NCBI GenBank assembly: GCA_033675265.1
Contig: JAUJYZ010001280.1
Location: 412,501 to 476,500 of the forward strand
Source of the DNA: Actinostola sp. cb2023
Lineage: Eukaryota > Cnidaria > Anthozoa > Actiniaria > Actinostolidae
DNA: 64,000 nt
Direction of reading: 5' to 3'
In this document: positions 5,201 to 61,324 of the stretch, one piece after another
Position numbering within the stretch: position 1 is the first letter of the stretch
How the letters are laid out: each line of letters begins with the position of its first letter
Notes under the pieces: generated by a model
The model's database searches: none
The model's input: the letters and a program-made list of their open reading frames with translations, nothing else
Told to the model about the DNA's origin: nothing
Position numbers and translations under genes: made by a program

Positions 5201-8200
5201 AACCCATTTTTCATGCATGTATGTAAACCTTTTTCCATGCATGTGTGTAACCCAATTTTCATGCATGTATGTGAACCTTTTTCCATGCATGTATGTGACC
5301 TTTTTTCATGCATGTATGTGACCTTTTTTCATGCATGTGTGTAACCCAATTTTCATGCATGTATGTAAACCTTTTTCCATGCATGTGTGTAACCCATTTT
5401 TCATGCATGTATGTGAACCTTTTTCCATGCATGTATGTGACCTTTTTTCATGCATGTATGCAAACCTTTTTTCATGCATGTATGCAAACCTTTTTTCATG
5501 CATGTATGCAAACCTTTTTTCATGCATGTATGTAAACCTTTTTCCATGCATATGTGTAACCCCTTTTTCCATGCATGTATGTAAACCTTTTTTCATGCAT
5601 GTATGCAACCCTTTTTTCATGCATATGTGTGTGAACCTTTTTTCATGCATGTATGCAACCCTTTTTCCATGCATGTATGCAAACCTTTTTCCATGCATGT
5701 GTGTAACCCATTTTTCATGCATGTATGTAAACCTTTTTCCATGCATGTGTGTAACCCAATTTTCATGCATGTATGTAAACCTTTTTCCATGCATGTGTGT
5801 AAACCTTTTTTCATGCATGTATGTAAACCTTTTTCCATGCATGTGTGTAACCCATTTTTCATGCATGTATGTGAACCTTTTTCCATGCATGTATGTGACC
5901 TTTTTTCATGCATGTATGTAAACCTTTTTCCATGCATGTGTGTAACCCAATTTTCATGCATGTATGTGAACCTTTTTTCATGCAGGGATGTTCGGAGTCC
6001 TAATCCAATTTTTACAAGTATTTTTACCGATTCACATAAAGAAGATATTACACAGGTTGGTGTAAATTAAGTCTTAGATCATTACAATAATCTCATGATC
6101 AATATTCCACTGCCAGGGCACAGGCAAACCACAGTGATAAAGTGACATTTGCACTAAAAAATACCGAATAAAACGTGTTTTAATATATTTTAGCCCGAGT
6201 AAATGCACCATTGTTCCCCACCCTCCCTCACTGAGTCGGAATAGGTCAACCGGAGGACGTATATTATTACAAGGTAGGCAACTTTCAGGATTCCTGTGGT
6301 GAATCTCAAAACAAATCTGCTAAAATATATATCAAATCTTGTGAAAACTCATCCCTAAATCCGTCCAGTTACTAAAATACCTTCAATCTATCATATCAGC
6401 TCAATTGTTTGCTTGTATTTTGAAGAAAATGCTGGCTTTGAGTCCAAGGACGCAAAAAAACAGCTTTCGTACATGTGCCGACAGTTAGGCTTCGACCAGC
6501 GCAGTCCTGGGGACGAAAATGTGGAGCAAAAATAACCCGCGTACCCCTTCCCTTGTATTCCTTTACTCGCCTGATCAAATGGACAAACGCAACCCTACAT
6601 AGGCAAACATTCGACTTCCGCTTTCGTAACTTTTAAATATTCATCGCGTGTGAATTCTTGACGCATGCAAGTTTTGTAAGACGGAATAATACAATACACT
6701 GTACAACAATTACAAGAAAGCTTGGGTTTCGTTCGTTATAGGTCTTATAGTCTACTGAAATTATGAAGAAAGTACAAGGTGTTTTGTAATTTGTATAATT
6801 CAATTCAAATATTTCGTTTGCCTTCCCACTGATTATTCGAAATGAATAACGCTTATTTGCGGACTTATTTGACATTAGAATAACAGTAATATAAATAGCA
6901 AGCTCTGCAACATGTGCATTGTAGATAACAATCTGGGACGAAATTCAACTGAGAACTGGTGAAAGTTAAGAATAACATTCAAAAATGTTACTGTCATTCA
7001 TCTGTATGTTGTAGTTTAATTTTTGCTTGTAATTATTGTGCAGTGTATTGTATTATTCCGTCTTGCAAAACTTGCATGCGTCAAAGAATTCACACGCGAT
7101 GAATATTTAAAAGTTACGAAAGCGGAAGTCGAATGTTTGCCTATGTAGGGTTGCGTTTGTCCATTTGATCAGGCGAGTAAAGGAATACAAGGGAAGGGGT
7201 ACGCGGGTTATTTTTGCTCCACATTTTCGTCCCCAGGACTGCGCTGGTCGAAGCCTAACTGTCGGCACATAGTACGAAAGCTGTTTTTTTGCGTCCTTGG
7301 ACCCAAAACCAGCATTTTCTTCAAAATACAACCAAACAATTGAGCTGACATGATAGATTGAAGGTATTTTAGTAACTGGACGGATTTAGGGATGAGTTTT
7401 CACAAGATTTGATATATATTTTAGCAGATTTGTTTTGAGATTCACCACAGGAATCCTGAAAGTTGCCTACCTTGTAATAATATACGTCCTCCGGTTGACC
7501 TATTCCGACTCAGTGAGGGAGGGTGGGGAACAATGGTGTATTTACTCGGGCTAAAATATATTAAAACACGTTTTATTCGGTATTTTTTAGTGCAAATGTC
7601 ACTTTATCACTGTGGTTTGCCTGTGGCCAGGGGGACACAGGTGTAAGAGTGACTGGGATGTACATAAGCACAAATTTGGAACTGTTTTTGGGGGTCCAAA
7701 TTTTTGGAGGACTAGTTTTTGCCAAGGAAAACAATGACTTTTTTGGGGGGTTAAATTATGGATCGTAGGACAATTTTTGGGTTGACTTTTAGCAGTATTG
7801 GACATAAATTCATAATAACAACATTACACAAAACAATGTACATTATTGTGCTTGCAAGTGATTGCTTTTCGTTTCAATTTATTCTAAGATTAAGTTCCAC
7901 CCTAGAAGATCAAAACATATGGCATCATGCTCAACAGTAAGTGCATTGTACATGTGGTTGGAAGGAAGGATAGGATGGTTGGAAGGAAGGAAGGAGGCAG
8001 GATGGAAGGAAGGCAGGATGGAAGGAAGGTAGGATGGATGGATGGATGGTTGGAAGGAAGGAAAGAAGGAAGGATGAAAGGTAGATGGGAAGGAAGGATG
8101 AAAGGTAGAATGGAAGGAAGGATGGAAGGATGGAAGGAAGGATGGTAGGATGGAAGGCAGGATGGAAGGAAGGTAGGATGGATGGTAGGATGGATGGAAG

Positions 8201-11200
8201 GAAGGATGGTAGGAAGGAAGGATGGAAACAAGGATGGATGGATGGTTGGAAGGAAGGAAAGGTGGAAGGATGGATGGTTGGAAGGAAGGAAGGATGGAAG
8301 GAAGGATGGAAGGAAATGGAAGGAATAGGGAAGGAAGGATGGAAGGAAGGTAGGATGGATGAAAGGTATGATGGAAGGATGGAGGATAGGATGGAAGGAA
8401 GGCAGGAAGGGAAGGAAGGTAGGATGGAAGGAAGGATAGAAGGTAGGATGGATGGAAGGAAAGAATAGGATGGAAGGAAGGATAGGATGGAAGGAAGGTA
8501 GGATGGAAGGAAGGTAGGATGGAAGGAAGGTAGGATGGAAGGATAGAGGTAGGATGGATAGGATGGGATGGAAGGTAGGATGGAAGGATGGAAGGATGGA
8601 AGGAAGGTAGGATGGAAGGAAGGAAGGATGGAGGTAGGATGGAAGGCAGGATGGAAGGAAGGAAGGCAGGATGGAAGGAAGGTAGGAGGATGGAAGGATA
8701 GAAGGTAGGATGGATGGAAGGAGGATGGAAGGAAGGTAGGATGGAAGGAAGGTAGGATGGAAGGAAGGAAGGATGGGTAGGATGGAAGGATGAAAGGAAG
8801 GTAGGATGGAAAGTACATGTAGGTAGGAAGAATAGAAGGTAGGAATGGGAAGGATAGGAAGGTAGGTAGGAAGGATGGAAGGTAGGATGGAAGGAAGGTA
8901 GGATGGAAAGGATGGAAGGTAGGATGGAAGGAAGGAAGGATGGAAAGGAGGTAGGAAGGATAGAAGGTAGGATGGATGGGATAGGGAAGGAAGGTAGGAT
9001 GGAAGGAAGGTAGGAGGATGGAAGGTAGGATGGAAGGAAGGCAGGATGGGAAGGAAGGTAGGATGGATGGTAGGAGGATGGAAGGAAGGATGGAGGAAGG
9101 AAGGAAGGAAGGATGGATGGATGGAAGGAAGGTGAAAGGAATGGAAGGATGGAAGGAAGGATGGTAGGATGGAAGGCAGGATGGAAGGAGGCAGGATGGA
9201 AGGAAGGCAGGATGGAAAGGATGGAAGGAAGGCAGGATGGAAGGAAGGTAGGATGGAAGGAAGGTAGGATAGAAGGAAGGATGGGAAGGTAGGTAGGATG
9301 GATGAAAGGTATGATGGAAGGTAGGATGGAAGATAGGATGGAAGGAAGGTAGGATAGAAGGATGAAAGGAAGGTAGGATGGAAGGAAGGAGGTAGGACGG
9401 ATGGAAGGTAGGATGGAAGGAAGGTAGGATGGAAGGAAGGAAGGTAGGATGGAAGGAAGGTAGGATGGAAGGAAGGTAGGAAGGAAAGGAAGGTGGATGG
9501 AAGGTAGGTAGGAGGATAAGGTAGGAATGGATGGAAGGATGGAAGGATAGGAAGGATGGAAGGTAGGATGGAAGGTAGGATGGAAGGTAGGATGGAAGGT
9601 AGGATGGAAGGTAGGATGGAAGGTAGGATGGAAGGAAGGTAGGATGGATGGAAGGATAGAAGGTAGGATGGATGGAAGATAGGATGGAAGGAAGGTAGGA
9701 TGGAAGGAAGGTAGAAAGAAGGTAGGAAGGATGGAAGGTAGGATGGATGGAAGGAAGGTAGGATGGAAAGTACATGTAGGTAGGAAGGATAGAAGGTAGG
9801 ATGGATGGAAGATAGGATGGAAGGAAGGTAGGATGGAAGGAAGGTAGGAAGGATGGAAGGTAGGATGGATGGAAGGAAGGTAGGATGGAAAGTACATGTA
9901 GGTAGGAAGGATGGAAGGTAGGATGGAAGGAAGGAAGGATGGAAAGTACATGTAGGTAGGAAGGATAGAAGGTAGGATGGATGGAAGATAGGATGGAAGG
10001 AAGGTAGGATGGAAGGAAGGTAGGAAGGATGGAAGGTAGGATGGAAGGAAGGTAGGAAGGATGGAAGGAAGGATGGAAGGAAGATAGGATGGAAAGTACA
10101 TGTAGGTAGGAAGGAAGAATGATGATCTCCTCAAATTCTTCTTCACTTGCCCTCCTTTGATTCCAATTTATATTTTTCTTCATGTTATTCTAGGATGGTT
10201 TAGTTTGTCTATTTGATGTATCTCATGCTGAGGAAGACGATGCCCTGCAATTTGTATTTAATTCAGGATCATCAGTGGTACAAAATGTTTAATTAAATGT
10301 TTTAATTAAAAATAATTACTTCATAAAGGTTTATAACTACCAGGCCCCGGTTGCACGAAAGGTGATTCAATAGCGCTATTCAACGCTATCCACCGAAATG
10401 GTTGGGATTTTTAGGACCGCCCCATAAGGACGCCTGCAAAGGAGGCTACACAATCACACTGAGGCATTATTTTTGTTTTTCGATAAATCTTTAACGTTAT
10501 CTTGAATGTATCTGTATTGATAGGGGCGAATTGGTTTCTATGCTGACAGATACAATAAACTCTTCTGTATTACCCACATCGAAACACTTCAATTATGGGA
10601 TATCAATGAGGTGAGAAGCTCCACATCAGATACATTTATAAAAATGACATGGCAGCTGAGTGAGAATGTTTTATCCGACAAGGATAATCAAGGTTGTAGA
10701 CACAAGGATATATCCAAAAACTGAGAAGTGTGTCAAAAAAAAACAGGCGCACCTGCCCAGTTGTGTAAGGTCCCTATTATTAGCCTCTTGATTTCTATAA
10801 AAGAATACATTTCAATTCTCTTTACAGGCCTCATTACTAGCGAATCATTCTGGGATAAGAAAGTGTGACAATGTAAGTACAAGTTAAATCACAAGTGGAA
10901 TCTTGAGAAAGCTGTATTACATTCTTTGCGTTATCGGGCATAAACTCCCAGGGAATCAAGACTTCAAAGGCTTACCAATAATTTTATTCTTAATATTAAT
11001 TATGTATTCAAACTTGTCGCCATATTGAAAGTGAAGCGTCCCCTAAAACAGCCCCACAATCCCTGGGACCCGTTTCTCGAAAGCCCCGAAAGCTTATCGG
11101 GCCCGAAAAGGGTTTCTTTAAATATCTATATCTTCAAAACAAAGTAGTTTACAGAGTTTGTTCATATTAAAAACATGTCAAAAGAACAGCTTTGTAGAGT

Positions 11201-53200: not shown

Positions 53201-56200
53201 GTGACTCTGGCAATGAGGGTTTATCACATAATTTCAAAACTCATAGGACAAAAAAATGATTATCATAGCTGGAAAGAGCTCGTTGAAATTAGTAAAAATG
53301 TGAAGTTTGGAAAAGATCGCTTCACAAATTACGAAGATATGAATTTTCAAAAATCGAAATTTTGTATGAAAACCTTTGTTGGAGGCAAGAGTTGCCTCCA
53401 AGCGTAATTTCCAAAGATTTTCATATAAAATTTCGATTTTTGAAAATTCATATCTTCGTAATTTGTGGGGCGATCTTTTCCAAACTTCACATTTTTTGTC
53501 CTATGAGTTTTGAAATTACATGATAAACCCTCATTGTTTTGAAACTTTAAAATTGTCCTTGAAGTCGATCCTTAATTCTACTCAGCCCACGTCCACGTGA
53601 TTTCCTTATATTATTTGAAGCTTTTTATAATAAATTCCTTGTCATTGCTTCTAATACTAGCTCCAGTGAAACCCTTGCTCTTTCCACTATCTCTTTGCTG
53701 TCTTTGCAGACTACTGATTTAGTTGTTGTGTTTTTCCAAGGGGAGCTGGTCCAGGATGCAATACAAGAGAAATATCAGATAAATTAGTAGACCTTAAACG
53801 AGAACTCGAGGGTCTTGACGAAAAGGAAGCAGAGCTGGATGAACAGCGAATATGGGTTCAACAAAGTCTAAAAAACATTTCAGAAGACTCTGACAATGAG
53901 AGGCTTGCTTTTGTAACATATGACGATGTTTGTAAGTCGTTTACTGGAGATACATTACTTGCTATACAAGCTCCGTCGGGAACTCAACTAGAAGTACCAA
54001 TTCCTGAAGTGGTAAGTTGCTCATCTTCAAATAACAAAAGATAGGAAAGGTGGCTGCATAGCACTTATGAGGTCCTCCAGGTTTGGGGGTTAGGCTGAGG
54101 GGTAATGACCCACTCTTGTAATAAAAAAAAGATATTACAGAAACCAAAATAATTCTAGATACAGCCTATAGTTGGCCTTATGGAACATGGCGCAATGAGA
54201 AACAATAATAAATACCTCTTATTAACTGAGCACAAGGCACATGGACCGAGTTTTTTCGCACAGCCTTGTGGCCCAAGCTCGTAGTGCGCGGGCCATAGAA
54301 AGTGGGGAAAAGACAATGATCCATAACTTCCCGTATGGACCGAGCAAGCGAGGTTAATAAGATATTTATTATATAGCTTTTCCTTACATTTCTGTTTTCA
54401 GCGGGCCATACCGGAAGTTACGGCCCGCTAATTGACCAATAAGAGCACACGTAGTATCTGTGCTATGTAATAATAGCACTTATGAAACAGGTACAGTTAG
54501 AAATTGAGGGAAAGTTGAAATGCTATAAAAAAAAACACAAAATCCTTCTGAGCGTTAGCCCTACAATGGAAAGGTGATTTGGACTTGTGACCTTCAGAAC
54601 TGATCACCGATGCTCTGGCCGTGGGTAATTAGGATGGAAATTCATGGCAAATAACAATATACACCAATACTAGGAAAGGTGGCAACGTAGCATTTATCAA
54701 TATTGGGTAGAGAGAATGCAATAATGGCGTCCAATTTCAATTGGCATTGTTCTGGACTGACTAACCTTCATGTGGAAACATTTCACCTGTATGAGAGGCT
54801 ACAATCCCATGCAAAATAAAATGTGCCACCATGAAATCTTAAGTCTCACCCCCCCTCCCCGTTCCAAAGTTGATGTTTGGGTTCAAAATTCCCTCAAATA
54901 TTACAAACTATCACTGATCAACATTGTGGAAGGGGAAGGGATCATAGGTGTCTCGTTTATATTGCAGGAGATTGTCTATAACAGGAATGATTGGAATGCA
55001 GCGTGTGGAGGGATGAATGTGTGAGATAGAGACCACAATATCGAACGGCAAATGCACATTTAAAATGTCATATTAATTATCCTAAAAAATTCGAACAAAT
55101 ATTGCAGCAGTAATGCGTATGTATGATATGTTTACTTATTAAAAGGGCTAATAATACAATGCGGAAAAAATCAGGAAAAAAAACTTTAATTATTGTAAAA
55201 AACAAAAAAATCATTGCACAACAATTTGTAAAAAGCAATGCATATATGGTAATTACTATGAAATGTACAAGACATACATTGCACAACAATCGTGTTAGAT
55301 TCAGTAGAGTCGAATGAATTCTGTAGTGACGTTATAAAATCTGAAGATCGAATGGACAGCGAAGAACAACTAGGGAACGAATTGCTTCGCAATCGCGATG
55401 TCAGACAAGTTTATTTAATAACATACAGTCAAGTCAATGCCGATATATTCCCAACCAGGGAGAGTTTTGTCACCATAGTTGAAGATGCATTTTCGACTTG
55501 TAATGTGCAGATATTACAATGGGTTTGTGCCAAAGAAAACCATATAGAGTCAGGATTTCACTATCATATGGGCGTCAAGTTGTTTGAACGGCACAGGTGG
55601 AGGAGAGTTAGGAGTGTTCTTCAAGAGAAGCACGGTGTGCATGTAAACTTCTCTAATCGTCATGAGAATTATTACTCTGCATGGAGTTACACCACGAAAG
55701 AAGATTCGGAGTATATTCAGTCAGAAGGCCATCCTGATCTTACCAATGCTCGACCTCCCCAAACCACGCGAGCAACTGAAGCACGGCGCAGAGGAGCGAG
55801 GAGTCGCACAAGAGAACGAAGTGCCAGAGGAAAAGCCAGAAGACGTCAATTGAGTGTTTACGAAGTTTCGCAAATAGTTGTAAGCAAAGGAATCAAGTCC
55901 CGTCTCGAACTTTTAGCGTTGGCCCAAGAACAACAAAGTCAAGGAAAAACAGACCTCGCTCAGTTCATAGCCAACCGCGGTCCAAAGGTTGTCGACGAAG
56001 CAATCCGAGTTGGATGGGAATTGAACGAAGCACCAAGTCTTGTGGTTCGGTCGCAGCAAAGTCGTTTAGAGCGACTAAACGTTGCCTTTGAAGGAGATTG
56101 TGTATCCAATTGCAATAAGAAATGGTTGGAGCTCGCGAGAAATATACTCACGCGAAACAACATCGATGGACCTGAGTTCGTAGGAGCTGTACGTTTATTG

Positions 56201-59198
56201 CTAGAGCAAGGAAGAGGGAAATATCGCAACATCATAATTACAGGCCCATCGAATTGCGGGAAAACCTTTATCCTCAATCCATTAAATATGATATATGATA
56301 CATTTAGCAACCCTGCTACGACAAGCTTTGCCTGGGTTGGAGTTGAAGGTTGTGAAGTCATATTTTTAAATGACTTTCGATGGTCAGCCCAGATTATCCC
56401 TTGGCACAATCTCCTATTGCTCCTCGAGGGACAGATGGTGCGTTTTCCAGCTCCAAAGACGCATTATGCTCAAGACATTGTCTTTGAGAAGGATTCGCCT
56501 ATATTCTGCACGGCGAATGAGCACTTCAGTTTTGTGAGAGGGGGTGCAGTTGACCGTGTTGAGACACAGATGATGAGAGTAAGATTTCGTGCATTTCATT
56601 TCTTTTCACAAATCCCGCAGGATGAACAAGTCAGTATCCCATCATGTGCGCGTTGTTTTTTGCGGAATTCATTCTTCACTGAAGCCCATGTAATTAGCTG
56701 CGATCCGTTTTCTTTGAAATTGAATTAGCATAATGTCATATTTTCATGGATATAACGCAGACGTCGGTGCTGTGAACGGTACACTGGGACGGATCACCAT
56801 GTTTTAAACTCAGAATTATATACTATGCTTGTAGTGTACAAACTCGATATACTAGTATATTGAGACATTTATATGTCAGTATAAAGATGAAAGGCTTTTT
56901 CAGTGATTTTATCTTAATATAAAGATATTAAACGACGATACACCACGGTGAACCGTGTAAATAAGATATAATATGTTATATATTCTCTTTTAGTGTCAAC
57001 GGTACACCGTTGCACAATGAGCTCGTTATATTGCGCTTTTGCACAAGAATACTAAACTTCAAGCCCATCATGGTATAATGGTGCAGAGCTCACTTCTTAT
57101 GGCTTTAATGTGCACCCAGCGTATTCTGCAGAGCTGTAATATTACATGTTTTACATGGTGTACCGTGGAGGTGATCCGTTCATTGTCATAGGACACCCCA
57201 TTCAGGGGTGGAGTGGGGTTTTCGGTGTCATACTTATTCTATGAAGACTTTTATGTTTATACCTGACACTGCGATAGAGGTGTCATAATCAGTCATAATC
57301 AAGATAGTAAATTGTTTTAAATGCATGTTTGATTGTAATACTTCACATTTATAGGGCGTTTGTTTATTCCTGAAATTTGCGCAGACTTGTAGTCTTAGGA
57401 AATAGTCATTGCACATGATTTTTATTATCAATAAATCACATTAACTAATAGGCTGTTTACAATACTTCAGGAGTTCTAATATCTTAAACGCTGTCCTTTT
57501 CTTTTTATAATTTCTTTCAAGCGATTTGACATCGATGCAATTATGTTATTTATGGTTGCTATGGGAACCGATTGAATTGTATTTATTACTCTATCCTGAA
57601 ATTCTTCGTACGTTTCCTTTTTGATTTGCGATGTTATTGCTTGCTCACGCAAAGCATCTGAAACAAGTTTAAAAACATTTTCGATAGGATTTAAGTCTGG
57701 ACTTCTCGGGGGTATACTGAGAAGTTCACAGTTTGCACGGGCCATAGCCGCACGAGCCATGGCTGAGTTTTGAATTGGATCCCCGTCTTGAAGCCATAAT
57801 CGCCTTTGGCCTTTATCTGCTATGACAAACATGGTCTCAAAGTTGTCGTCAATAAACTTGGCGAAATAAGGGCCATTCAACTTAACATAAGCTTTGCATG
57901 TGATCACACCCTTGTCGAAACTTATAGCTACCATCAGCTTCACAACACGGCCACCAGTGCCTGTTTTTTGCCCCTTCGCGGTACAACCACGATCCAGTCC
58001 TTCACATCTCTTGCGCCATACCCTGGCTTTGGGTGCCAGAGCTTGATCCAAGGGATTTCTCTTGTACGCAAATCCCGTTCCGTCAAGGTAAAATGCTATA
58101 TCTTGCGTCCACACATCGCAACGAAACTCTTTTAGCATTCTCCGTGCAAAAACTCTTCGTTTTTTTATGTCTGTCTTCGTTAATAGACCTTTCTTTCGAG
58201 CTTGTAGATAATAGTAGCCCTCTTTATTTAAAAACCGCGAAATTGTACTCTCTGAAACCTCTAGTCTAGCAATACAAGCGTTTTCCATGAGTCTCTTGAT
58301 CGTGAAATTACCTTCTTGCTCTCTCAGTATCTGTATAGATCTTCTAAGTTGCCTTTCTTGACGTACACTTAATTTTCTTGGTCTTCCTCTTGTCTCAAGG
58401 CGTGTATTCACAGATCTATCCCTGTTCATATCCATATTACGAATTCTCCACACAGTTGCTCTAGAAACGTTACACACTCTTTCGCCACTTTTCGAATTGA
58501 AAGTCCTTGAAGTTTGGATAAATAATATACCATAGCTCTTGTCTTGGGGTCAATGGCCATACCTCTGTTTATACCTCTACTGATCGTTATTTTCAATGCT
58601 CTTGTTGAGTTGTTGTGATTCAAAAGGTAATACTAATGCTTATATATCATTTGTTTGCTTTATTGGTTCATTACATAAATATTTGAACGCGTTATAATGT
58701 ACGTAAGTTCAAACTTTCTCGTGACTTCCAGTTCAAATCCGTTCGCACGTCATAAATTTCAACACCTACTTTACGTCATTTGTTTATCTTGATATCTAGG
58801 TCTAGAGACAATCCCATGCAAAATAAAATGTGCCACCATGAAATCTTAAGTCTCACCCCCCCTCCCCGTTCCAAAGTTGATGTTTGGGTTCAAAATTCCC
58901 TCAAATATTACAAACTATCACTGATCAACATTGTGGAAGGGGAAGGGATCATAGGTGTCTCGTTTATATTGCAGGAGATTGTAGTCAGTCCTGGGCCCGG
59001 TTGTTCGAAAGGCGATTAGCGCTAATCCAGGATTAAATCTTAAGAAAACTATTGACGCTAATCCAGGATTAGCACTAATCACCTTTCGAACAACCGGCCC
59101 CAGAACAATGGCAATTGAAATTGGACGCCATTATTGCATTTGGTCTATACATATATTTATTTCTACCATCTTCAAAATAAGCCATTATTATAATCATT

Positions 59199-59229
<31 letters not shown>

Positions 59230-60587
59230 AGTAAGCCAATTACTGGGGACTATACTTTTACGTGCTACCCTCATTAAATAAAATCTTTACCTTACCTTTA
59301 CCAATAGAAGCTGGTTACCGGCGGAGCTTCGGCGGTTATTTACCATTCCTCCAGTGGCTACTTTTGTCTGTGTATGATCGTACAGATCTAAAAATAATAA
59401 TTGAGTACCGGTATACGGCTACTTTGAGCATCTCGTACAGCTACTTCAAAAATTAATCAAAGCCCAGACTGCATGTGCACTTGCTTCAAGGGCATATGAC
59501 TATTTGCCCAAGGGAGCCTGATGCTCCGATATAAAGTGTTTGTCTGAGAAAAGGATGTTTTTATCCTCATTATAGATCACATTAGTATACTGGATCTTAT
59601 TTTTGCTTGTTATTTTTGAAGAAAACAGTGAAGTGACACAAAATGTTTATATATTTCACTGAGGGTGGTGATCATTTCCTCCCACTTTAATGGGAACAAG
59701 GGTTGAAAACAGTTTAGAGGACTTGGTTTAACATGGTTCTTTGTGCATACATAAAGTGCTTACAAGTGCCTATCAACTGTAAAAGAATAATACACCACTT
59801 CAAGGTTCTGTTCAGTATAGCTACGAACAATGGTATCAAGTCAAGGTTGTCCTTATGCTTTCATTCAATAGACCTTTTTACCGATACGGCAGCCATTTTG
59901 GATTCTATTGTTTTGGCTAAAACATTATGGGATGCTCAGGGTGCAAATGACCCAAAAACTCCCAAAAACTGTACATGTGGAGTCGCGTCAATATATTATT
60001 TTTCTATTTCACTCTAACCATAGTGTTGTATGATTTACTATCTACATGTGTTGTGTATTGTATAATTTTGTACAAATTCATTGCTTTAAATTAGGTTTTC
60101 GTAGTTTTTCATGGCCAAATGGTTACTAGCTTGCACCCTGGGCATCCCATAATTCAAGATGGCCGCCATATCAGTAAAAAGGACTATTATTGTATTTGCA
60201 CAAGGCCAACCTCAACTTGGTACCATTGTTCATGGGTACTCGACAGAACCGTGAAGTGGTGTATTCTAATAACAGTTATTATTATTATTAATAATTATTA
60301 TTGTTACTTTATTTTCATTCTTCAGCACCAAGGAATGTCTAGAAAGTATCAAATTCATCTTAAAAGTCAAAATGGTCCAATACATGTTCTACTTGTGAAC
60401 AAAGACGCTTCGGCAGATAGTCCAGTCGTTACCCCTGTACCACCCCCAATGGCAACAAATGGTACCAATGTCAATCTCAAGCAGGAACCAATGGAGACAG
60501 ACCTTCCAAAATCATCTACACGTAATCAGAATGCTAGTGCTGGCACTGGTAGTGGTGTGAAGACAGAAGTTATTGAGTCAAGTCAGG
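50280..60587 (+). CDS. E2F4/5: E2F4/5-type transcription factor, 3' end beyond window
   Basis: The exons are 50280-50399, 50537-50646, 53741-54011 and 60326-60587, all GT-AG with matching phases. They encode 254 residues plus a partial codon (phase 1), so the C-terminal transactivation/pocket-binding exon(s) are missing. The winged-helix DNA-binding domain spans residues 10-77, with the signature [20 protein letters not shown] at 51-70. A dimerisation coiled coil follows (about 83-125, [15 protein letters not shown]...), then the marked box (about 130-185: [26 protein letters not shown], and KYQIHLKS in exon 4). The short N-terminus without a cyclin-A-binding region, and the GPGCNTREI...[13 protein letters not shown] wording, place it with E2F4/E2F5, the p107/p130-partnered repressor class. 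ATG at 50280 is preferred over the in-frame ATG at 50265 because of its AACATGG context. Intron 3 carries the Rep/transposase element. Confidence 0.93.
51598..51808. mobile_element. CAGGGTAGCAAAGGGG MITE in E2F intron 2
   Basis: The ends CAGGGTAGCAAAGGGG and CCCCTTTGCTACCCTG are inverted. The interior has mirrored TGACTTGTGA-type and GTGAATCACGA-type words. The target duplication is unclear (A-rich on both sides). Confidence 0.65.
51923..52555. repeat. 154-161-bp tandem repeat, 4 copies, in E2F intron 2
   Basis: CATAATAATTACATGACTGT begins at 51923, 52082, 52243 and 52397. Copies differ by small indels in the AT-rich end. Minus-strand ORFs repeating [17 protein letters not shown] are artefacts of the repeat. 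Confidence 0.9.
53211..53536. mobile_element. Inverted-repeat element, 326 bp, in E2F intron 2
   Basis: The arms CAATGAGGGTTTATCACATA and complement extend inward for over 100 bp, through GAAGATATGAATTTTCAAAA, to a centre GGAGGCAAGAGTTGCCTCC. A second copy lies at 63391-63645. The two exons on either side are intact. Confidence 0.8.
54205..54377. repeat. Diverged inverted repeat in E2F intron 3
   Basis: AATAAATACCTCTTATTAAC on the left pairs with GTTAATAAGATATTTATT on the right, with GGACCGAG-type words inside. It resembles 30905-31046. Confidence 0.5.
54801..54975 (+). repeat. 175-bp direct repeat, left copy
   Basis: The repeat begins ACAATCCCATGC and ends GCAGGAGATTGT, so its ends are inverted over 6 bp (ACAATC/GATTGT). 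It is identical by eye to 58808-58982. CT lies directly outside both ends of this copy. It contains a CCCCCCCTCCCC tract. No coding function is apparent. Confidence 0.9.
55352..56728 (+). CDS. rep: CRESS-DNA/geminivirus-like Rep: HUH endonuclease + SF3 helicase
   Basis: The first ATG in frame is 55352, giving 458 residues; the frame is open further upstream. Rolling-circle motif I is YLITYSQ (21-27), motif II is HYHMGV with the HUH pair at 70 and 72, and motif III is YTTK (113-116) with the nicking tyrosine. A basic linker follows at about 145-165. The helicase part has Walker A GPSNCGKT (298-305), Walker B VIFLND (336-341) and motif C IFCTAN (384-389), then an arginine-rich [13 protein letters not shown] segment. 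Every motif needed for nicking and ATP-driven unwinding is intact, and the gene has no intron although host genes are intron-rich. In known CRESS viruses Rep starts rolling-circle replication at an origin hairpin. A similar role on this element is inference. It is annotated as a mobile-element or old viral-type gene. Confidence 0.9.
   Translation: MDSEEQLGNELLRNRDVRQVYLITYSQVNADIFPTRESFVTIVEDAFSTCNVQILQWVCAKENHIESGFHYHMGVKLFERHRWRRVRSVLQEKHGVHVNFSNRHENYYSAWSYTTKEDSEYIQSEGHPDLTNARPPQTTRATEARRRGARSRTRERSARGKARRRQLSVYEVSQIVVSKGIKSRLELLALAQEQQSQGKTDLAQFIANRGPKVVDEAIRVGWELNEAPSLVVRSQQSRLERLNVAFEGDCVSNCNKKWLELARNILTRNNIDGPEFVGAVRLLLEQGRGKYRNIIITGPSNCGKTFILNPLNMIYDTFSNPATTSFAWVGVEGCEVIFLNDFRWSAQIIPWHNLLLLLEGQMVRFPAPKTHYAQDIVFEKDSPIFCTANEHFSFVRGGAVDRVETQMMRVRFRAFHFFSQIPQDEQVSIPSCARCFLRNSFFTEAHVISCDPFSLKLN
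56774..57181. promoter_or_regulatory. Candidate replication origin: iteron-like repeats, hairpins, TAATATTAC
   Basis: The region lies between the convergent stop codons. ACGGTACAC (56776-56784) and ACGGATCACC (56789-56798) occur as a pair. The inverted pair GTGTACCGT (57158-57166) and GGTGATCCGT (57170-57179) closes the region. Between them are two tight hairpins: CACGGTGAACCGTG (56944-56957), and CAACGGTACACCGTTG (56997-57012), which again contains ACGGTACAC. TAATATTAC, the geminivirus nick-site nonanucleotide, lies at 57137-57145 within the palindrome TGTAATATTACA, but without an obvious GC stem. Rep binding here is inferred. Confidence 0.5.
57476..58560 (-). pseudogene. Tc1/mariner-like DD34E transposase, one frameshift
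   Basis: The main frame (57476-58477) encodes about 333 residues. A second frame upstream (to ATG at 58560) encodes [19 protein letters not shown] and the start of a helix-turn-helix. The two frames would join at [15 protein letters not shown] if one GT of a TGTGT run at 58472-58476 were absent, so a 2-bp insertion breaks the first helix-turn-helix. The GRPRK AT-hook-like link lies at residues 31-35 of the main frame. The catalytic triad is Asp132 (FYLDG), Asp231 (LQDGD) and Glu266 (SPDLNPIEN), with 34 residues between the last two. Other family-like wording includes [17 protein letters not shown]. Such an enzyme cuts at inverted repeats and joins into TA, which fits the element's ends. This copy is probably inactive unless the frameshift is an assembly error. 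Confidence 0.85.
58808..58982 (+). repeat. 175-bp direct repeat, right copy
   Basis: Same sequence and orientation as 54801-54975, with no difference seen by eye. AG lies directly outside both ends, and the right terminal inverted repeat begins at once with AGTCAGTCC. Confidence 0.9.
58992..59101. mobile_element. 110-bp MITE splitting the right terminal repeat
   Basis: The ends GGGCCCGGTTGTTCGAAAGG and the complement of CCTTTCGAACAACCGGCCCC flank a core with two GCTAATCCAGGATTA motifs. Removing 58992-59101 restores continuity of the right terminal repeat (AGTCAGTCC then AGAACAATG), so this insertion is younger than the Rep/transposase element. Confidence 0.85.
59865..60190. mobile_element. 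MITE in E2F intron 3, about 326 bp
   Basis: The arms AATAGACCTTTTTACCGATA and the complement of ATCAGTAAAAAGGACTATT extend inward through GGCAGCCATTTTGGA and CATTATGGGATGC...GGGTGCAA. The right end is 135 bp before exon 4. Confidence 0.75.
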
Positions 60588-60628
60588 GTAAGATATCCAA
60601 ACATCTAATAGTGATTTTAAAATTAATA

Positions 60629-60817
60629 CAGTGGAACCTCTATATAACGGCCACCTTTGGGACTTTTGCAAAGTGGCCATTATATAGGTGGCCGCTTAAT
60701 AAAGGTATAATTTACAGAGCTTTACTGACAAAAAAAAACAATCGGGACCTTGAAAATTGGCCACTGAATAGAGGGTGGCCGCTTAATAGAGGTCCATTAT
60801 ATAGAGGTTCCACTGTA
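60629..60817. mobile_element. ACAGTGGAACCTC MITE in E2F intron 4
   Basis: The ends ACAGTGGAACCTCTATATAA and its complement ending CCACTGT are inverted. The interior repeats GGCCACC/GGTGGCC and GGCCGCTTAATA. It belongs to the same broad family as 3445-3618 and the source of the 12107 array. Confidence 0.75.
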
Positions 60818-61324
60818 GATCTAACATGACGAGACCAATAGGGAGCCTTACAAATTTAAGGAGGGTGTATTCTAATACTGGTAACCTCAATTTTGTATGC
60901 AATCATAATGCCATAGTCTATAATGTATGGTTTTATAGACTGCTACTATTAAGTCACTGTAGTCACAATTTACCATTTAACAATGCGTTTCACATCACTT
61001 TGGACGAGCGGATTCCAAAGTTCATTCGTAAGTTCCAAAGTTCACCTTGAACTTGGGAACTTTGAAGTGAACTTTGTTGGTGAATGTACATACATTGCAA
61101 CTCCCTTTCAGACTTATTATTAATAAATAAATGTACCGTAGTATTAGGGAAACAAATTCTGAATACAGTCAAACTTCTCCTAAATGACCACTCTTGTTGT
61201 AAGGTAAGGTTGCTTGTGGAGTTGGTTATTTATAAACAGGATAATGTTAGTGCGAGAACAACATCTGTGATTACTGACTGAAGGGTAAATTCTCCTTCAG
61301 AATGTTTGAATTCTGCAAGAGAAT

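Follow-up and report, generated by a model that had tools for sequence, protein, structure and literature searches.

A Rep gene and a Tc1/mariner-type transposase gene share one mobile unit between direct terminal repeats in a sea anemone genome

Introduction

Can a virus-like Rep gene and a DNA transposase gene lying side by side in an animal chromosome belong to one mobile element, and if so, where does this element end and how might it move? According to PMC10175614, the Rep endonuclease is presumed to mediate the integration of ssDNA-virus sequences that are found as high-copy endogenous elements, a view lacking experimental proof. We analysed a 64,000-nt stretch of Actinostola sp. cb2023 (GCA_033675265.1, contig JAUJYZ010001280.1, positions 412,501-476,500, forward strand), referred to here as the window, in which the original prediction had placed both genes in one transposon bounded by 53-bp inverted repeats.

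Results

Element ends and target site

Our analysis supports one mobile unit combining a TA-targeting Tc1/mariner-type transposase with a HUH/SF3 Rep, but not the ends originally proposed for it. Outer inverted repeats with TA alongside do exist around both genes (54708-54755 and 59100-59147; 48 nt, 92% complementary), being the arms of a MITE of about 160 bp, MITE-1, for which 40 loci were scored among 980 candidates, the window locus included. Copies of these ends lacking Rep had been named in advance as evidence against the pairing, and each of the seven other MITE-1 copies read is the short MITE alone, without Rep or transposase. By that criterion the outer repeats fail as element ends, because they belong to a MITE into which the element jumped, and we rejected them. 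Five of the seven other MITE-1 stretches show the site empty, as GAGAGGCTA-GTCAGTCC or the complementary sequence, while the window reads GAGAGGCTA[CAATC...GATTG]TAGTCAGTCC at the same position; comparison of the empty GGCTAGTC with the filled GGCTA[...]TAGTC delimits the true element to 54802-58981 (4,180 bp) with a duplicated TA. MITE-1 copies elsewhere provide only paralogous empty sites for this insertion. A second small foldback MITE interrupts the right MITE-1 arm.

The element has the form TA-M-U-M-TA (Table 1), in which M is a short cassette without genes, present as identical left and right terminal direct repeats, and U contains Rep and transposase as convergent genes. Each M carries both inverted transposon ends (CAATC...GATTG), the chromosomal TA being duplicated at the outer flanks, and the inner flanks AGA[M]TCT, with a fixed GA...TCT, being part of U. 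The direct repeats had been overlooked in the original prediction. Both outer flanks were visible in 29 of 34 compared loci, 28 reading CTA[...]TAG and one CTG[...]TGG, which indicates a 2-bp target duplication.

Table 1. Features of the Rep/transposase element and its insertion site (window positions)
Feature	Position	Strand	Basis or remark
Left part of host MITE-1, target of insertion	54708..54801	+	matches start of ~160-bp MITE copies elsewhere in genome
Left TA of 2-bp target-site duplication	54800..54801		context C-TA; empty versus filled MITE comparison
Left terminal direct repeat M (173 bp)	54802..54974	+	inverted ends CAATCCCATGCAAAATAA / CAATCTCCTGCAATATAA
Unit U (Rep, intergenic region, transposase)	54975..58808		inner flanks M]TCTATA ... 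TAGAGA[M
Rep, HUH endonuclease and SF3 helicase	55352..56728	+	ORF and motifs
Candidate origin region for Rep binding, with seven iteron-like GTGNWYCGT sites	56776..57179		motif count
TAATATTAC nonamer	57137..57145	+	sequence match; without supported stem-loop
Tc1/mariner-type DD34E transposase	57476..58560 (open frame 57476-58549)	-	ORF, domains, family alignment
Right terminal direct repeat M (173 bp)	58809..58981	+	identical to left M
Right TA of target-site duplication	58982..58983		context TA-G
Right part of host MITE-1	58984..59147	+	split by foldback MITE (about 58994-59102)

Transposase, Rep and intergenic region

The DD34E transposase predicted between the inverted repeats was borne out, its Pfam matches DDE_3 (2.3e-11) and HTH_Tnp_Tc3_2 (7.4e-8) both lying above cut-off. 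Across 29 sequences, residues D156, D255 and E290 show no or almost no variation, 34 residues separating the last two, and Sleeping Beauty is related at 2.1e-14; the IS630 model gives 80 bits, under its cut-off of 100. The window copy is slightly damaged, its frame being broken near the N-terminus.

The Rep likewise proved to be an HUH endonuclease/SF3 helicase, carrying the HUH motifs LITYS, HYH and YTTK and the helicase motif GPSNCGKT, and joins a geminivirus-like nuclease to a papilloma/parvovirus-like SF3 helicase. Its last few residues are off the family frame, which is kept in other copies. No Pfam Rep family scores above cut-off for the window protein; PPV_E1_C is matched by 21 of the 63 Rep proteins analysed here at E 0.01. 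A Rep profile found no match in PDB sequences at E 0.1, and a single-sequence Rep search gave weak matches only. Searching a viral contig collection with Rep, the Rep alignment and the transposase alignment revealed no relative, nor was one gained from a genome contig collection with a further alignment (A2). Beyond Rep and transposase, the element has no ORF of more than 170 aa, the gaps being 0.25-0.75 kb, a search that a spliced or very short capsid gene would escape; a transposase standing in for the capsid gene, as originally suggested, is compatible with these data.

We also confirmed a repeat-rich region between the genes, where seven of the 11 GTGNWYCGT sites of the whole window fall within 404 bp, the motif having been picked after the repeats were seen; a total of 11 was reached by one of 100 shuffles of the window. 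In exact 8-mers, the intergenic region in the window (top count 3), that of locus L050 (top count 4) and, an AG run aside, that of L053 stay within the shuffle range. Shortened derivatives keep the seven-site region wholly or in part, which is weak evidence as they probably share few founding deletions; one of them, L026, has lost the part after E2054, in which the nonamer and five of these sites lie. The TAATATTAC nonamer, which we take to be as in geminivirus origins, occurs at three more places elsewhere in the window, and folding of its surroundings gave no supported stem-loop (z -0.71). Among five lineages compared we found no conservation of the nonamer, the NANTATTAC form being present in two and absent from three, and a fourth having a variant only.

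Recurrence in the genome

The originally predicted pairing of both genes holds in other copies: in the same genome we read ten more members of the window family that are complete or almost so, and a convergent transposase lies close downstream of Rep at 63 of 81 Rep loci (Rep identity 41-100%), compared with none of the 81 for a same-strand transposase as control. Pairing extends to Reps only 41-57% identical, and many loci have stop-free Rep frames at 46-57% identity. As the pairing recurs between different ends, namely the 173-bp direct repeats, it is not due to chance. The scored candidates offered no partner for 18 of the 81 Rep loci, nor for 43 of 106 transposase loci. Across contigs, in which 661 Rep relatives were found, the Rep and transposase match lists have seven exact contig sizes in common, two of them long (24,302 and 384,268), compared with 0 to 6 (mean 1.6) for lists shifted by 1-15. 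In 25 of the 120 Rep clusters, and in 29 of 120 for the transposase, the longest contig measures 3.5-4.5 kb, a size that collapsed repeats would give as well. The ten family copies are too alike for a selection test, differing from the window in Rep by 17 synonymous and 24 non-synonymous changes and in the transposase by 16 and 29, respectively.

M repeats are present in four of five divergent lineages examined, one being cut by the end of the available DNA, with the same inner GA/TCT flanks around M in different lineages; in L054 no M repeat was found within 5.6 kb. This recurrence rules out M-U-M as a one-off recombination in the window. M copies are closer within one locus than between loci, left and right M sharing locus-private or subfamily changes, and gene conversion between the two copies would be an alternative cause of this likeness. 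Subfamily differences aside, single changes are mostly confined to one copy, and L041 has two changes common to left and middle M that are absent from the right M. Head-to-tail tandem arrays are present, which may also arise by unequal crossing-over. A solo M, TA-flanked and 100% identical, was recognised at one locus (L046) only among 42 matches, with 40 of 196 candidates scored.

Discussion

We consider it reasonably probable that the element is a Rep-replicated circle, consisting of U and one M, which is integrated by its own transposase acting on M and thereby leaves a cointegrate-like M-U-M. The replicating form would be a circle of 4,007 bp here, as judged from the assembly alone. Rep may bind the iterons between the genes and replicate the circle in rolling-circle fashion, so that head-to-tail multimers form, and the transposase would then join the left end of one M and the right end of the next M to a CTAG target; alternatively, replicative cointegration could take place at a single M into the CTAG target. 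Either route would result in one unit between two direct M copies, as in a bacterial cointegrate. Recombination between both copies could free the circle again, leaving a solo M behind, and M by itself is probably able to jump or be excised too. Such a life cycle of circle, replication and integration fits the anatomy of the element, known from assembled copies only; two M copies side by side, as in L038, are not simply predicted by it.

That the whole linear M-U-M moves as a plain cut-and-paste transposon without any circle, Rep being a captured passenger or a mere bias on copy number, seems unlikely to us. Such a transposon accounts for the TA duplication, for a Tc1/mariner-type transposase related to Sleeping Beauty, for shortened derivatives, as such transposons have, and for the solo M with TA flanks, which behaves as a MITE, but it gives no reason for M holding both ends or for left and right M sharing locus-private or subfamily changes, and the head-to-tail arrays, the pairing at 63 of 81 loci and the stop-free divergent Rep frames speak against it. 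There is a small chance that M is an independent MITE and that U+M circles enter a solo M already present at TA by homologous recombination, which would produce the same final arrangement, TA outside and GA/TCT inside; the identical solo M suits this route, which predicts left and right M to be no closer than random pairs, whereas they are closer within a locus, and only one solo M was recognised among the 42 matches, with 40 of 196 candidates scored.

In a composite-transposon-like arrangement two M MITEs would bracket and mobilise U, which would not be a replicon; M bearing both ends and occurring alone agrees with this, yet independent brackets would neither match locus by locus nor have the same inner GA/TCT flanks in different lineages, making this arrangement highly improbable. 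Chance nesting, in which a transposon and the Rep of an endogenised CRESS virus fell together without being related, can draw on the outer 53-bp repeats, which do come from another element, but has a negligible probability, being refuted by the excess of convergent over same-strand transposases, the ten further copies and the contig sizes common to both lists.

To our knowledge, two direct cassettes each bearing both ends are an architecture of no eukaryotic family. With the scales evenly balanced, the integrated circle may represent an undescribed class of animal mobile element, i.e. a capsid-less, Rep-replicated circular replicon integrated cointegrate-like by its own Tc1/mariner-type transposase at M as an attachment cassette without genes. 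Such an element would be to animals what integrative plasmids are elsewhere, diverse in a single sea anemone genome and, given the 661 Rep relatives, probably widespread. The Rep here comes with its own dedicated transposase and with ends making circle integration lossless, which offers a testable route for ssDNA-virus-like replicons to live in the chromosomes of animals, possibly as an intermediate between viruses, plasmids and transposons, and may account for some Rep-like genes in marine animal assemblies.

Tc1/mariner (IS630) elements, e.g. Sleeping Beauty and Mos1, have in common with the anemone element the DD34E triad, the HTH_Tnp_Tc3_2 and DDE_3 domains, the TA duplication and inverted ends. 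Ordinary members have one terminal inverted repeat pair and the transposase as sole gene, whereas here the ends lie on the direct-repeat cassette M at both sides and Rep is in the unit; the element is a relative of Tc1/mariner, not an ordinary member. In bacterial replicative cointegrates (Tn3, IS26) two direct copies of the transposable sequence enclose a circular donor replicon within the target, with the target duplication outside and the donor flanks inside. The likeness is one of form only: the anemone transposase comes from an animal and from a family that ordinarily works by cut-and-paste, and the short cassette contains no genes, these being carried by the donor part. CRESS-DNA viruses (Cressdnaviricota) have a circular ssDNA genome with a nonanucleotide in a stem-loop as origin and share the HUH endonuclease-SF3 helicase fusion, but have a capsid gene, none being present among the ORFs above 170 aa here. 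Helitrons, with HUH, SF1 helicase and no TSD, are ruled out by the SF3 helicase and the TA duplication.

Within the open-access full texts searched, no Rep/transposase M-U-M element was found; the portion of PMC6668415 on HUH replicons contains no such element, and the coral MITE paper PMC2872659 deals, in the part seen, with piggyBac-type MITEs. The geminivirus-like transposon of Tuber melanosporum (Liu et al. 2011, PMC3198968) resembles ours as a repeated eukaryotic-genome element whose inverted repeats enclose both a CRESS-type Rep ORF and transposase ORFs. Compared by description, its ends and target duplication differ: it is reported from one species, with inverted repeats of 37 bp, without an obvious target duplication and with ORFs that are interrupted or truncated, and section 8 of that paper names no direct M repeats, no transposase type and no cross-lineage pairing. 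The RepE1 cressviruses found in sea anemones and in seawater (preprint PMC11071296) share the host group and the papillomavirus-E1-like helicase on a CRESS-type Rep and occur as high-copy endogenous fragments; their contigs, as far as described in the excerpted text, encode capsid-like proteins, with no transposase or M-U-M mentioned. Teratorn, a piggyBac-herpesvirus fusion, also unites virus replication genes and a DNA transposase in one intragenomic element, differing, according to PMC10175614, by its herpesvirus genome of about 180 kb and its other transposase superfamily.

Boundaries and genomic setting of the element

The two reading frames originally reported for the region, one for Rep and one, convergent with it, for a transposase, are both present, and both genes are damaged in this copy. 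The 53-bp inverted repeats proposed as the element's ends do exist (92% complementary, 48 nt), but belong to MITE-1, a family of gene-less MITEs of ~160 bp, into which the element has jumped. The left inverted repeat of MITE-1 gave 77 genomic matches, with 40 loci, including the window's, scored among 980 candidates, and the seven other copies read are ~160 bp long and without genes. The uninterrupted site, GAGAGGCTA directly followed by GTCAGTCC, is present in 5/7 printed MITE-1 stretches, one of them as complement, and is interrupted in the window by the insert with TA on either side.

The insert consists of a unit U, containing both genes, between two direct repeats M, which are identical in the window and each of which opens with CAATCCCATGCAAAATAA and closes with an imperfect inverse of CAATCCCATGCAAAATAA. 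Flanks were compared at 34 loci, window included, with both outer flanks visible in 29, among which are a solo M and two copies that have lost much of their interior: 28 of the 29 read CTA[...]TAG and one CTG[...]TGG, and the remaining five loci, having a single outer side visible, show CTA or TAG. On its inner side M is bordered as ...TAGAGA[M and as M]TCTATA...; genome-wide, the left inner junction occurs 35 times, compared to 0 for a reversed-pattern control.

The window belongs to a 424-Mb animal assembly of 1,594 contigs. Because E2F_CC-MB domain matches are found on both sides of the element, it is probably located in an intron of an E2F-like gene. The site holds three nested elements, i.e. 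MITE-1, the Rep/transposase element and a foldback MITE.

Positions and properties of the features described (L, fetched loci of the same genome; E, positions along the window element)
Feature	Position	Properties
Rep/transposase element	window 54802-58981	same 173 bp (M) at start and finish
MITE-1	window 54708-54801 and 58984-59147	~160-bp MITE family; 53-bp inverted arms
Third MITE, foldback	window ~58994-59102	inserted in MITE-1 right arm; arms 48 nt, 90% complementary
E2F-like gene exon, upstream of element	window 53718-54041	E2F_CC-MB, 9e-24
Second E2F_CC-MB match, downstream of element	within window 60095-60826	weaker: 2.5e-4, below cut-off
GGAA-type tetranucleotide array	window 7960-10094	2.1 kb; extreme GC skew (0.967)
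Satellite-like array (L022)	G000:C1436:151300-157300	~415-bp units from E267-433 and E1595-1841
Derivative M-M-U'-M (L038)	G000:C1332:132300-138300	two adjacent M copies at left end
M repeat, divergent lineage L050		~158 bp; CA...TG inverted ends
M repeat, divergent lineage L051		~288 bp; CA...TG inverted ends
M repeat, divergent lineage L052		~274 bp; CA...TG inverted ends
Head-to-tail array, L052		period 3,936
Head-to-tail array, L041
12-copy transposase array	G000:C1569:144.7-190.1 kb	one contig, 45 kb; spacing 3.5-4.1 kb; another lineage

Copies of the family and the intergenic region

Using as query the left M together with the adjoining inner sequence, we obtained 42 matches in the same genome (40 scored among 196 candidates), and 33 further loci were fetched and each compared with the window element. 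Ten are full-length or near full-length, seven being collinear across all 4,180 positions with 98.1-99.7% identity and three having insertions/deletions; both reading frames are open in 2/11 full copies (marker peptides in one frame). Shortened derivatives account for 18/33 loci, the usual form retaining E1-433, E1595-2426 and E3571-4180, i.e. M at each end and the intergenic region with iteron-like sites. L026 lacks part of the intergenic region, L033 lacks the right M, and L038, L043 and L044 have different break points. The remaining five loci comprise a solo M (L046), a 5'-truncated copy (L047) and three other partial copies. The doubled left M of L038 does not follow simply from the circle model proposed below, and the array at L022 is perhaps a satellite being born from a transposon.

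Seven of the 11 GTGNWYCGT sites in the 64 kb lie between the Rep and transposase genes; this motif was picked after the repeats had been seen, and 1/100 shuffles reached 11 sites. Repeated intergenic 8-mers exceed all 300 shuffles in L051 (7; shuffle maximum 5) and L052 (5; shuffle maximum 4), and are not above shuffles in the window (3), L050 (4) and, once an AG run is set aside, L053. For the TAATATTAC nonamer no stem-loop was found, and it is not conserved in the lineages compared.

Rep-transposase pairing across divergent lineages

Six-frame genome searches gave 107 matches for Rep (92 scored among 386 candidates) and 118 for the transposase (114 scored among 388 candidates). A convergent transposase lies at most 2.5 kb downstream in 63/81 merged Rep loci, at a distance of 0.47-1.34 kb in 60 of these 63, and a same-strand transposase in 0/81. 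A Rep partner is present at 63/106 transposase loci; unpaired loci may be truncated or have their partner outside the scored candidates. Identity to the window's Rep ranges from 40-100% across all loci and 41-100% in paired ones. Rep/transposase elements are a class comprising more than one family.

Five loci of divergent lineages were fetched (L050 to L054). The outer 2-bp duplications are TA in L050 and L051 and CA in L052, all three sharing the inner flanks GA[M]TCT. L053 has the left portions of two M copies, the outer flank being CTA and the inner one CTCAGA; its fetched DNA stops within the second M. In L054 no M repeat was found in 5.6 kb.

For public protein clusters, comparison of the best 120 of 661 Rep matches with the best 120 of 824 transposase matches revealed seven contig sizes that occur, exactly matched, in both lists. 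As a count alone this is modest, because lists offset by 1-15 bases still share 0-6 sizes (mean 1.6); two of the seven are long (24,302 and 384,268). Judging from these sizes, the clusters agree with the pairing. Rep and transposase distances are correlated (r 0.91 for eight pairs including the window; reached by 9/5000 permutations). The nearest printed case found is a truffle element, the account of which mentions Rep and transposase ORFs (PMC3198968), and searches of open-access full text turned up neither the M-U-M structure nor a conserved Rep-transposase pairing. The parts are known; their combination and the architecture appear to be new.

Origin of the M-U-M architecture

We infer circles of U and one M, which would be replicated by Rep and joined to the target by the transposase. 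The transposase would act at M, in a replicative reaction or on ends taken from two consecutive M copies of a multimer. Either way the product would be M-U-M, flanked outside by duplicated chromosomal bases and inside by constant sequence from U, and both M copies of an insertion should come from one M. M copies differ by a mean of 1.25 within a locus vs 2.81 across all left-right pairings (0/20000 permutations), the within-locus similarity being reached in 125/20000 permutations inside full copies and 177/20000 inside derivatives, and M copies belonging to a single insertion look as if derived from one. Gene conversion could imitate this likeness. Locus-private changes are shared by every M copy in L040 and in L038. 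Of the other single changes, most are found in one copy only, and L041 has two changes in its left and middle M that are absent from the right M.

The head-to-tail arrays, including the 12-copy array in which Rep copies lie among the transposases, fit multimers, and could also have been made by unequal crossing-over. Derivatives are furthermore joined directly, unit to unit, at six junctions in two loci (L033/L048 and L035), TCTAGAGAC being followed by GTCTATAAC. Only C and G remain of M between the units at these junctions, as if they were the footprint of M excision.
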